Shown: piece by piece, positions 10,804 to 13,968 of the stretch
How the letters are laid out: each line of letters opens with the position of its first letter
How positions within the stretch are numbered: position 1 is the first letter of the stretch
Assembly: GCF_009931655.1 (NCBI RefSeq)
Contig: NZ_CP047984.1
Span: 4,729,001-4,793,000, forward strand
Reading direction: 5' to 3'
DNA: 64,000 nucleotides
Source: Pontibacter russatus
GTDB lineage: Bacteria; Bacteroidota; Bacteroidia; Cytophagales; Hymenobacteraceae
The notes under the pieces: model-generated
The model's input: only the letters and a program-made list of their open reading frames with translations
Databases searched by the model: none
Told to the model about the DNA's origin: nothing
Program-made: the position numbers and the translations under genes

Positions 10804-11118
10804 TTTTATTGACAGAAGCGCCTGCTGTGGCTGGGGTTTGGTGGAGCCTGCTGCGAAGGCGGGTTATATATAGGCTTGCAGGAAGGAGGCAGCTTATATG
10901 CTCAAATTATATATAGTAAATTTAATTAGGAGTCTTTGCTAATCTTTTTTAACTTAACCAGGAGAAGAAGGTGGTTATGATAATGCTTTCTGCATCAAAG
11001 ATGATTTCTAAAGGTAGCGGCAAAAATGTAGAAGGCCTCCTCCATACATAGTGCAGATAAACGTAGGTTCATGTAAAGCCACACGTTAGCCGCAAATTGA
11101 TAAAAGAAAACCTGTAAG
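10804..11118. other. Intergenic left flank of the AT-rich island
   Basis: No gene is seen. The sequence turns sharply AT-rich after about 10,890. Close to the right end, AAACGTAGG (about 11059-11067) and CCACACGTTAG (about 11079-11089) form a weak dyad. The ACGTTAG at its right arm is followed by an A/T-rich start region, the same arrangement seen at 11958-11970 in front of the next gene. It may mark the left edge of a gene cassette; this is inference. Confidence 0.35.
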
Positions 11119-11913
11119 ATGATTTCAAAAGATATTCTATTAAATAATTTTTCAAAAATTGAATATTTAACTTTCGTCTGTGAGTGCTGCAAAAAAGGGG
11201 CAAAAGTTTTTGACACAAACAAATACTTTGAATCAGAATCCGAATTTTCCAGAAGAGAATATACAGAAGATGTAAATGGGTTTAAGACAAAGATACAGAG
11301 AAGGTTCTCAGCTGGTTTTATATGCTCAAATTCTGAATGTAGAGATATTTCAATATTAGTTGGCGAAATTAATTCTATTTTAAGATTACAAGAAGAAAAT
11401 TATCAAGGACAGGTCACTCAAAATCCTACATATAATAATAGGATATCCATTTTTGATATAGTTCCAACTTTAAACTTATTCGATATTGAAAGTTATTCGT
11501 TTAAAACTGAAGCAAGTGCTATAGAAAGTGAATTAAAGGATGTTTTTAGTGTATTCTGGAGAAACGCTGATTGCTGTGCTATGAAAATAAGAGCGTTTCT
11601 GGAAGTTTTGATGGATGATAATATTATTGGCAAGACAGGCACAGATAAAAAGGGAAAAGAATATCCCTATAAATTACATCGGCGCATCGAGTTTTTTGAA
11701 GAGAAATATCCAAATGAAGATTTGAAAGCAATACTTCTAAATCTAAAAGACTTCGGTAATATTGGAAGTCATGCAGGAGAAAAATTAACACGGGAGAAAT
11801 TAATTATAATGGTTGAAATCGTTGAATGCATTTTGAATCAATTGTATACCGACAATAGAGGAAAACTTATAATCTTAGATAATAAATTAAAAAAATCAGC
11901 CACTAACGTTTAG
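11119..11913 (+). CDS. Zinc-ribbon-like protein with DUF4145 domain
   Basis: A 264-residue cytoplasmic protein. The N-terminus has a CxCC cluster (residues 21-24) and a later CSNSEC (about 72-77), which together could bind zinc. The C-terminal half (RIEFFEEKYPNEDLKAILLNLKDFGNIGSHAGE, then a helix) matches DUF4145, a HEPN-like helical domain known from restriction and other defence proteins. Codon use is strongly AT-rich, unlike the genes on either side, which points to acquisition by transfer. The last codons lie inside the left arm of a perfect inverted repeat. The molecular function is unknown; a defence role is inference from domain and context. Confidence 0.75.
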   Translation: MISKDILLNNFSKIEYLTFVCECCKKGAKVFDTNKYFESESEFSRREYTEDVNGFKTKIQRRFSAGFICSNSECRDISILVGEINSILRLQEENYQGQVTQNPTYNNRISIFDIVPTLNLFDIESYSFKTEASAIESELKDVFSVFWRNADCCAMKIRAFLEVLMDDNIIGKTGTDKKGKEYPYKLHRRIEFFEEKYPNEDLKAILLNLKDFGNIGSHAGEKLTREKLIIMVEIVECILNQLYTDNRGKLIILDNKLKKSATNV

Positions 11914-11966
11914 TGTAAACAACAAGCCATCGGCCATGGCTTGTTGTTTACACTAAACGTTAGTGG
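11900..11966. repeat. Perfect 31-bp inverted repeat with 5-base loop
   Basis: Arms 11900-11930 and 11936-11966 are exact reverse complements, with loop CGGCC. The outer ends carry CCACTAACG and CGTTAGTGG. The stop codon of the DUF4145 gene lies within the left arm, and the nuclease gene begins 22 bases after the right arm. It has no T run of terminator type. It could be a terminator-like hairpin, but its length, perfection and CTAACG/CGTTAG ends look more like a recombination site of a gene cassette. Confidence 0.9.
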
Positions 11967-11988
11967 TAATTTTAGAAAACAATTTTTT

Positions 11989-13026
11989 ATGCGGTATCTT
12001 TCTCTGAAACAAGAAAAGTTTAGAGACTTTCTATTTCTTAAACTAGGATTTAAAGAAGGCGAACACTTGAATCGCTATAGAGAATATTTAGAAGCATTGA
12101 TTGATTTAAAAGATTATAAAAAGGAGTTTACCTTTACAGATAGAAATAATAAAGATAAGCAGATAACAATAGAAGTGGATTTCACCATTGTTGATTGGCT
12201 TGTTGACGAATTAAATTTTAGAGAAGGTAGAAGTTGGAAAAAGAAAGCGACGATAAATATCGCAAAAGCAACTTCAGCAACTGATTTAGCTAACTTCTCA
12301 TTTTGCCCAGCAAGCTTTTCTATCTCTAATACTTTTGAAACGGAGAGAACCAAAAACATGGAAGAGGGAACTCTTCAACATGAAAAGTTTCATCTTTTAA
12401 AATGGAAAGAGAAAATTGAAATCTTAGATTTAGATAAAACTGAAATTACAGATAGAGAAGTATCATTTATAGATAAAGAAACAAAAGACTTTTTTAAAGA
12501 GTTAAAATATTCAAAAGTTGTTTATTCTGGACATCAAGAAAATGGAACTTCATTCTTTTTTAATAAAGCAAAAACATTTGTAGGGCAACCTGACTATGTA
12601 TTTAAAAATTCAAATGGAAATAATTTTATTGTAGAAGAAAAATTAAAATTTAACAAGGAGGAAACAATATTCTTTGTAAATAATAAGGTGCAATTAGCTG
12701 CATACTTAATAGAACTTGAAGAATTTAATGCAAATTATGGTTACTTAGTTTATTGGTACTACTATTCAAATTCATTGAAATGCAAGGTTGTTAAAATTAC
12801 AAAGAATGAAGTTGTGGGTAATTTTATAAACAATATTTTTAAACAAATAGACTTGCTAAAAGAAGGAACAGTCATAGAATTTGATACATCTAAATTAAAT
12901 ATCAACAAATGCCTAAATTGTTCAGTAAGGAAATGGTGTGGACATAAATCAGGGAACTATAATGATTTGAGTTTTCCTTATTCTGATTCATATATGAAAC
13001 TATTTTACGTAAAATATGAAAAATAA
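11989..13026 (+). CDS. Cas4-like PD-(D/E)XK nuclease with Fe-S cysteines
   Basis: A 345-residue protein, AT-rich like its neighbour. The second half has the Cas4/PDDEXK_1 pattern: Cys 106 (FCPASF), His 131 (GTLQHEKFH), Asp 202 (GQPDYVF), Glu 217 and Lys 218 (VEEKLKF), Gln 235 and Tyr 239 (QLAAYL), and the final three cysteines 308, 311 and 317 (CLNCSVRKWC). In Cas4 proteins, one early and three late cysteines hold a 4Fe-4S cluster, and the enzyme is a DNA exonuclease. The first 95 residues are unrecognised. The frame is open upstream into the palindrome from a TTG; the ATG at 11989 is preferred. No cas genes or CRISPR repeats are nearby. Confidence 0.75.
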   Translation: MRYLSLKQEKFRDFLFLKLGFKEGEHLNRYREYLEALIDLKDYKKEFTFTDRNNKDKQITIEVDFTIVDWLVDELNFREGRSWKKKATINIAKATSATDLANFSFCPASFSISNTFETERTKNMEEGTLQHEKFHLLKWKEKIEILDLDKTEITDREVSFIDKETKDFFKELKYSKVVYSGHQENGTSFFFNKAKTFVGQPDYVFKNSNGNNFIVEEKLKFNKEETIFFVNNKVQLAAYLIELEEFNANYGYLVYWYYYSNSLKCKVVKITKNEVVGNFINNIFKQIDLLKEGTVIEFDTSKLNINKCLNCSVRKWCGHKSGNYNDLSFPYSDSYMKLFYVKYEK

Positions 13027-13196
13027 AAAACAGCCACTAATTAATCCAAAACGCCAGCTTCGGCCGACGGCCTCGCACAACATTTACATAAGTCCGTGAT
13101 TCGTAATATTTAAAAAATAGAGCGATAGCTCAAGATTTTAATTTACAAGCAATAGTCAAAAGAAGCAGACCAGCAGTTGTTTATATATAAATCAGC

Positions 13197-13754
13197 ATGA
13201 GCTTGCAGAGAAATAGGGAAAGCAACAGGAACGATAATGCTACCGCAAACAAGTTAACAAATGTGTTATTTATAATTTATCTGCTTGCCTTGCTGTGGAT
13301 TTTAGTTTTCAAATTAGGGGTTCAGTTTTCTTATATGGCAGACAGGAGCGTAAATTTGATTCCGTTTGGGGAGCCGCTGATGTCGAATGGCAAGGCTGAT
13401 TTTAGTGAAATGATTTTGAATGCAGTGATTTTTGTGCCGCTTGGTATATATACAGGAGTCCTGTTTGAAAGATGGAGTTTTTGGAAAAGAGTACGCTTTG
13501 TTTTCTCAGTCAGTCTGGTGATCGAAGCACTCCAATTCCTTCTGAAAGTTGGAGCTTTTGATATTACGGACATTATAACGAATACAGTAGGCGGAGTAAT
13601 CGGCTTAGTGCTGTACAAGGCAATTGCTAAAATATTCCGGAATAGCAGGAAGGCGCAGAATTTTGTAAACGTCAGTGCAGCAATAGGTACCGCCGGCATG
13701 GTTCTACTGTTGGTACTGCTAAAACTGGATCTGCTCCCGATAAGATACAGATGA
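13197..13754 (+). CDS. VanZ-like membrane protein
   Basis: A 185-residue protein with about five membrane segments. The block NLIPFGEPL, followed by ILNAVIFVPLGIYTG and a later FDITDIITNTVGGVIGLVLY, is the VanZ-like signature. VanZ gives low-level teicoplanin resistance in enterococci, but most chromosomal members have unknown roles. Base composition lies between that of the AT-rich island and the rest of the chromosome. It starts 170 bp after the nuclease gene; there is no clear promoter in between, although TATATA lies just upstream of the ATG. Confidence 0.85.
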   Translation: MSLQRNRESNRNDNATANKLTNVLFIIYLLALLWILVFKLGVQFSYMADRSVNLIPFGEPLMSNGKADFSEMILNAVIFVPLGIYTGVLFERWSFWKRVRFVFSVSLVIEALQFLLKVGAFDITDIITNTVGGVIGLVLYKAIAKIFRNSRKAQNFVNVSAAIGTAGMVLLLVLLKLDLLPIRYR

Positions 13755-13937
13755 TATAAACCCCAGGTATAACTCACAACGCTTCCATAGGCAGGAACAG
13801 CTTTGCACAATAACTGCATTATAAAAGCATGGGCCAGCCAGTTTACACCTGTGCAGTCTAATTATGAGCATCAAGTGCCTCACTCAGAAGCAGCTATATA
13901 TAAACACCGGCAGCCTGTTTATTTTTCTCCTCGAACG

Positions 13938-13968
13938 TTTGCTCCGAAAACATTTTTCGCTACCTTTG
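13938..13968 (+). promoter_or_regulatory. SRP RNA promoter, Bacteroidetes type
   Basis: TTTG (13938-13941), a 19-base gap and TACCTTTG (13961-13968) match the Bacteroidetes housekeeping sigma consensus exactly. The predicted start, about five bases downstream, coincides with the first base of the SRP RNA closing stem. Confidence 0.85.

Follow-up and report, generated by a model that had tools for sequence, protein, structure and literature searches.

A perfect 31-bp palindrome in Pontibacter russatus is almost certainly the attC site of the first of two cassettes in an integrase-less integron of a Bacteroidota type that is ubiquitous in Pontibacter. The locus can be read with high confidence as a succession of (i) an orphan attI, (ii) cassette 1, (iii) attC 1, the palindrome itself, (iv) cassette 2 and (v) a degenerate attC 2; positions given without a locus name are those of the window, the whole stretch of 64,000 nucleotides that was analysed. 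Integrons count as rare among Bacteroidetes, yet 12-77 attC sites are present in every Pontibacter genome examined. IntegronFinder 2.0 records one complete integron in Bacteroidetes proper, that of Salinibacter ruber (PMC9024848), and the taxon models of attC cover 11 taxa with no Bacteroidetes among them (PMC8352920). Literature searches limited to an open-access library yielded no account of integrons in Pontibacter, Hymenobacter, Cytophagales or Flavobacteriaceae, although earlier reports may exist elsewhere; the large integron family of Pontibacter and its relatives is apparently undescribed so far, and it is this family behind the palindrome that is likely to be the news. The integrons of Pontibacter give access to an extensive and hitherto hidden store of mobile genes, partly on a plasmid, and a natural cassette-moving system lacking the I2 helix of classical integrases would allow direct tests of how the integron mechanism arose.

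The sequence-only reading had described an exact palindrome with a 5-base loop, and a repeat search of the window bears this out: the arms at 11900-11930 and 11936-11966 are 31 nt each, 100% complementary and 5 nt apart. When all 64 kb are scanned for hairpins, the palindrome scores 31, and no other ungapped inverted repeat exceeds 20. The site as a whole (attC 1, 11899-11967, + strand) has its R'' box AAC at 11905-11907 and its R' box GTT at 11959-11961, with the cut point at 11959/11960. Its suggested kinship with the folded recombination sites of mobile gene cassettes gains support from a covariance model, R1, which was trained without the palindrome and finds it at 36.9 bits on the - strand and 31.5 bits on the + strand, and from the arrays of the genus, which lie beside an integrase and an attI and share cassettes that end at cut points. 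A genome search for further copies gives a divided answer: the arms have no further copy in the genome of 4.97 Mb, which is unsurprising for attC stems, whose sequence is not conserved, while sites of the same architecture are abundant. No Rfam family is found at the palindrome.

The covariance model was adopted because a simple energy scan for AAC...GTT hairpins, now rejected, gave mostly coding-sequence noise. R1 was trained on 25 sites, none from the window, 24 coming from relatives and one from elsewhere in the same genome (4.61 Mb); its E-values are rough, the calibration having been shortened. The 25 aligned sites share an architecture that combines AAC and GTT boxes with an asymmetric spacer, followed by an L stem and the terminal loop. 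Their stems are paired in 97.4% of cells, whereas shuffles reach 79.0% and slid partners 27-38%; double changes number 73, compared with 24 in shuffles. The slid-partner control weighs most, because related sequences can beat shuffles without any structure. The attC sites of the family show the classical R''/R' and L''/L' pairs, the terminal loop and the covarying stem, and the window site joins them through the model. In typical family sites, the spacer is unpaired, with about 3 nt on the left and 5-6 nt on the right. The L-stem columns of the 25 aligned sites have no gap, that is, no extrahelical bases, and a bulge-free helix of at least 8 bp is present in at least 77 of 109 sites. R1 finds sites in 50 of 50 Pontibacter genomes, 1384 in total, and none in the integrase-less control loci L042, L043, L046 and L082 among the matches listed. 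At the integrase loci analysed, each of the 96 confident sites is downstream of the integrase and shares its strand; some of them are training sites, in the choice of which strand and position relative to the integrase played no part.

Searches with the end motifs CACTAACG...CGTTAGTG and CTAACG...CGTTAG were dropped as evidence because their counts were at or below a chance control and the 15 contig matches were of mixed kind; across the genus, the count for CTAACG...CGTTAG lay below the control. This search nevertheless surfaced palindromes with differing stems, one of them at 1,014,491 in the same genome, within a run of AT-rich, same-strand, single-gene units beside a tyrosine recombinase. 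Some palindromes with different stems have the loop GCTTCGGCCGACGGCCTCGC in common, which is also present after gene 2. Another candidate, L009 of genome G224, was rejected as an attC, as its arms do not pair. The motif CAGCCACTAA, noticed at the ends of both window genes, is real at both 11897 and 13031 and forms the R'' side of each cassette's attC. Group II introns and IS110-type transposases are known guests of attC arrays. Genome G292 has two inverted group II intron copies (L078 11346-15011 and 2621-6250) with two reverse transcriptase genes each, one copy beginning directly after an attC-like stem (GTGCGCCC...), and IS110-type transposases are found within or beside arrays.

In the window, the cassettes are part of an insertion relative to related genomes (10810-13950, ends approximate) between guaA and the SRP RNA. 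These two and transaldolase are adjacent in nearly all compared genomes of the genus, and the distance from guaA to the SRP RNA is ~3.1 kb in the window versus 185-240 nt in L164, L165, L168 and L171. The G+C content of 11001-13000 is 29.5%, compared with about 55% in the surroundings. The insertion contains, in order, the attI-like site, cassette 1, attC 1, cassette 2, attC 2 and a vanZ-like gene. By analogy with cassettes bounded in this way, cassette 1 would span 11086-11959 (+) between the cut points of attI and attC 1, and cassette 2 11960-13096 (+) between those of attC 1 and attC 2. Gene 1 (11119-11913, +) encodes 264 aa with a DUF4145 domain (Pfam PF13643, 1.4e-13). Gene 2 (11989-13026, +) encodes a PD-(D/E)XK nuclease of 345 aa, which matches PF12705 (3.8e-6), TIGR00372 (5.5e-9, below cut-off) and PADLOC Cas4 (3.6e-11). 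It is Cas4-like only, without Cas4 membership: it fails the cut-off of the Cas4 family with 36 versus 65 bits, and no cas genes are seen beside it. Its start is most likely the ATG at 11989, about 30 nt past attC 1; both window genes begin ~30 nt past a G^TT and end close to an R'' box. The second site, attC 2 (13031-13104, +), is degenerate, with TGATT in place of TTRRR after the cut point G(13096). R1 finds it at 13033-13104 (32.7 bits, E 1.2e-5 over 583 kb), and its loop core CAGCTTCGGCCGACGGCCTCGC at 13055-13076 recurs in attC sites of other Pontibacter. No relatives of genes 1 and 2 were found in viral contigs, nor any of gene 2 in the genomes of 58 relatives.

The vanZ-like gene (13197-13754, +; PF04892, 8.9e-24) is at most a candidate third cassette, as no attC could be found after it. 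Among the 50 genomes of the genus it has a close relative in G152 only, at another position, and upstream of that relative lies a palindrome, CAGCTAACTAAAGC...GCTTTAGTTAGCTG (L041 8957-9023), which R1 misses and which is possibly another attC. The gap between guaA and the SRP RNA could be an insertion hot spot; it holds 0.6-1.1 kb of extra DNA in L174, L175, L176, L178, L182, L187 and L190. Compared with the CALIN and In0 elements of IntegronFinder (PMC9024848), the window locus resembles a CALIN with its attI left, but has only two attC sites, one of them degenerate, and was found with an attC model specific to the Pontibacter family.

At integrase loci, the attI has a site like ACATAGTGCAGATAAGCGTATGTTnnCGTATATACTATAG^TTRGC ~110 nt past the integrase stop codon, followed by the first cassette. 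The orphan attI-like site of the window (11040-11087, +) has the 14-mer CATAGTGCAGATAA at 11047-11060 and the cut point G^TT at 11085/11086; the 35 nt from the 14-mer to the cut point is the commonest spacing among attI sites downstream of integrases. What had been taken for a weak copy of the palindrome at about 11059-11089 is this attI-like site, with G^TTAGCC at its cut point, and no copy of the palindrome. The 14-mer has at least 148 matches, distributed over 47 of 50 genus genomes, and the reversed control has 0 among the matches listed. It is preferably read as a DNA site; the end of a small ORF (HSADKR...) is disfavoured, because the frame is not conserved across all copies.

Many 14-mer copies have no integrase upstream. 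The window island likewise contains no integrase gene and no recognisable integrase remnant, and the two integrases of the genome lie elsewhere. The integrase gene of the window locus has probably been lost, a view based on the decayed integrase 3' end that other orphan attI copies keep (L141, L144, L159, also L138 and L143). Alternatively, an orphan attI and its cassettes might constitute a self-spreading unit, in which the attI region is copied or moved with the first cassettes and the integrase acts in trans. Such a unit would accord with the number of exact 14-mer sites, ~2-3 times that of integrase genes in the 50 genomes, and with the fact that most orphans have no integrase remnant in the part read; however, the decayed integrase ends at the orphans just named speak against it, as does the failure to find a target-site duplication or another end, and it is unlikely overall. 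Under the preferred reading, loss of the integrase, the window cassettes are probably fixed, unless they are served in trans by either integrase elsewhere in the genome. A third attI-like site of this genome (L231 4989-5028, at 4.06 Mb) is also an orphan and is followed by at least two cassettes, the first being the one that is 98.8% identical to a cassette in the 4.60 Mb array.

Cassette mobility is visible in comparisons between arrays. Two arrays of the P. russatus genome (4.61 Mb and 4.06 Mb) contain the same 580-bp cassette, the copies agreeing at 98.8% over precisely the stretch that the predicted cut points delimit; the identity runs from GTTGGCC to CCGTT, and one copy is joined to attI and the other to attC. 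The cassette at an attI of the same genome (L045 7239-8257) is 99.9% identical to that of another species (L214), cut at both sites. Among 17 shared-cassette pairs, most end at or beside the site boxes. Since shared cassettes begin and end at predicted G^TT cut points, the family moves cassettes as units cut at G^TT. This applies to the family and not to the window cassettes, because neither cassette 1 nor cassette 2 could be found again in other arrays.

The presumed enzyme is a Xer/IntI-like tyrosine recombinase, found in association with the arrays and putative in its activity, which occurs in 41 of 50 genus genomes (E<=1e-60). The family has single-gene cassettes separated by attC sites and an attI next to the integrase. 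Both integrase loci of the P. russatus genome (L045 8396-10063 at 1.02 Mb and L044 7537-9009 at 4.60 Mb) have their own attI and cassette array. The predicted substrates of the enzyme are the hairpin attC and the attI that lies ~110 nt past its own gene; strands would be exchanged at G^TT, a cut point placed by the bounded cassette identity in other arrays. Aligned copies are 479-490 aa long, with Phage_integrase and Phage_int_SAM_4 as core domains. The TIGR02249 and XerA models score about equally on the integrase, all below their cut-offs, and the TIGR02249 match skips positions 180-241. The integrase is below the curated cut-offs of XerC, XerD and XerA alike, XerA being nearest with 213 versus 220 bits. 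The IntI-specific insert I2 (~42 residues) is absent, as judged from the KDR-HxLRH interval of 65 residues, compared with 107 in IntI1 and 67-73 in aligned Xer proteins. A small tree places the integrase as sister to IntI (support 86/87, long branches), a weakly supported position that serves as a lead only. The N-terminus is predicted to form two similar b-b-a-b-b-a-b domains (16-sequence alignment, mean pLDDT 75), and the whole predicted model matches the structures of IntI4 and XerA best. In both loci of this genome and in G311, the integrase has a divergent neighbour gene that encodes a treble-clef-like motif. In the two loci of this genome, between this small zinc-finger gene and the integrase there is a perfect or near-perfect palindrome (L044 7459-7504, L045 9902-9959).

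The integron system extends beyond Pontibacter, because three of 395 genomes of the phylum, all of family f26, have relatives of the integrase (E<=1e-80) with same-strand arrays. These relatives are 375-aa frames with 42-48% identity; the zinc-finger neighbour is found in two of the three genomes, and the arrays have weak to moderate attC matches in all three. Within the genus, plasmid pls1 of Pontibacter kalidii (L234, NZ_CP111080.1 13113-39976) has the same integrase with a cassette array, and tra genes are found on the plasmid; this array is a mobile form of the Pontibacter integron. The annotation of NZ_CP111080.1 has only a tyrosine-type recombinase and hypothetical proteins there. In another phylum, an Acinetobacter indicus plasmid (NZ_CP041290.1 28223-28744) encodes a recombinase C-terminus with 55% identity to the Pontibacter integrase.

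The recombinase could in principle be only a neighbour of the arrays, with another enzyme, for example the host XerC/XerD, moving the cassettes. The core without the IntI insert and the profile scores as close to XerA as to IntI would suit this idea, and some genomes, such as G296, have attC sites and no integrase at the threshold used. It is nevertheless very improbable, given that the order integrase, attI, array is constant in the loci read, with 96 of 96 sites downstream on the integrase strand, and that the same order recurs with the 375-aa relatives in another family. Like the Xer recombinases (XerA 4a8e/5hxy, XerD), the integrase has a catalytic core without I2, and these are among its best profile and structure matches; it differs from them in its link to cassette arrays, its extra N-terminal domains, and a SAM_4 core-binding domain and C-terminal SPLD motif in common with IntI.

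The Pontibacter system resembles the sedentary chromosomal integrons with IntI, such as the Vibrio cholerae superintegron, in its attI and single-gene cassette array with the G^TT cut, in attC hairpins that combine R and L boxes with an asymmetric central spacer, and in cassettes bounded at cut points. In contrast with these, its integrase has no IntI-specific insert (65 versus 107 residues in IntI1), the L stem mostly has no extrahelical bases, and there are extra N-terminal domains, a zinc-finger neighbour gene and an integrase on the array strand. Treponema-type integrons have a genuine IntI, with the integrase on the cassette strand. The Pontibacter array is likewise downstream of the integrase on the same strand, but the integrase is without the IntI insert.

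The I2 helix of classical integrases serves as docking place for the extrahelical attC bases and hinders the second strand exchange; it has been described as the innovation that enabled integrases to use single-stranded attC (PMC7790495). Strand choice is directed by the extrahelical bases, and the spacer is required for high efficiency (PMC2727003). Two separate tests lead us to infer that matching parts are missing in the Pontibacter protein (I2) and in its site (extrahelical bases); the lack of I2 and, in most sites, of L-stem bulges, with the spacer kept, suggests another way of strand choice. We lean slightly towards the view that the Bacteroidota may have an integron lineage of their own, in which the integrase copes with hairpin attC sites although the I2 helix and the extrahelical bases are both missing. 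Such an integrase would select the strand and prevent the second strand exchange by other means, perhaps through the tandem N-terminal domains and the treble-clef partner. If true, the integron mechanism would have arisen twice, or else this lineage would have survived from a pre-I2 stage.

That the palindrome is merely the transcription terminator of gene 1, with an accidental likeness to attC, is scarcely credible: it does lie at the end of gene 1, whose stop codon TAG (11911-11913) sits within the left arm, and its 31-bp stem would also fold as RNA (-36.5 kcal/mol with DNA parameters), but no T run directly follows it, the AAC and GTT boxes are correctly placed, it is preceded by an attI, the next gene is followed by a second attC, and a covariance model trained elsewhere finds the palindrome. 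The palindrome may end transcription in addition to serving as attC 1.

As an attC, the window site is untypical of its family: its symmetry is perfect, the spacer loop is missing, and the - strand gives the slightly higher score. Typical family sites have an unpaired central spacer, whereas the window palindrome is fully paired and the spacer absent. Probably one arm was copied onto the other, in the manner of quasi-palindrome correction, which would have removed the internal loop. Since it has also lost the spacer, the window palindrome may, by analogy, recombine poorly. A minority of attC sites elsewhere is nearly symmetric and scores on both strands (L077 9772-9843, L080 9314-9374, L045 2488-2557, L079 9146-9219 and L078 9206-9281), and this near-symmetry may likewise reflect arm-to-arm copying that removes the spacer.
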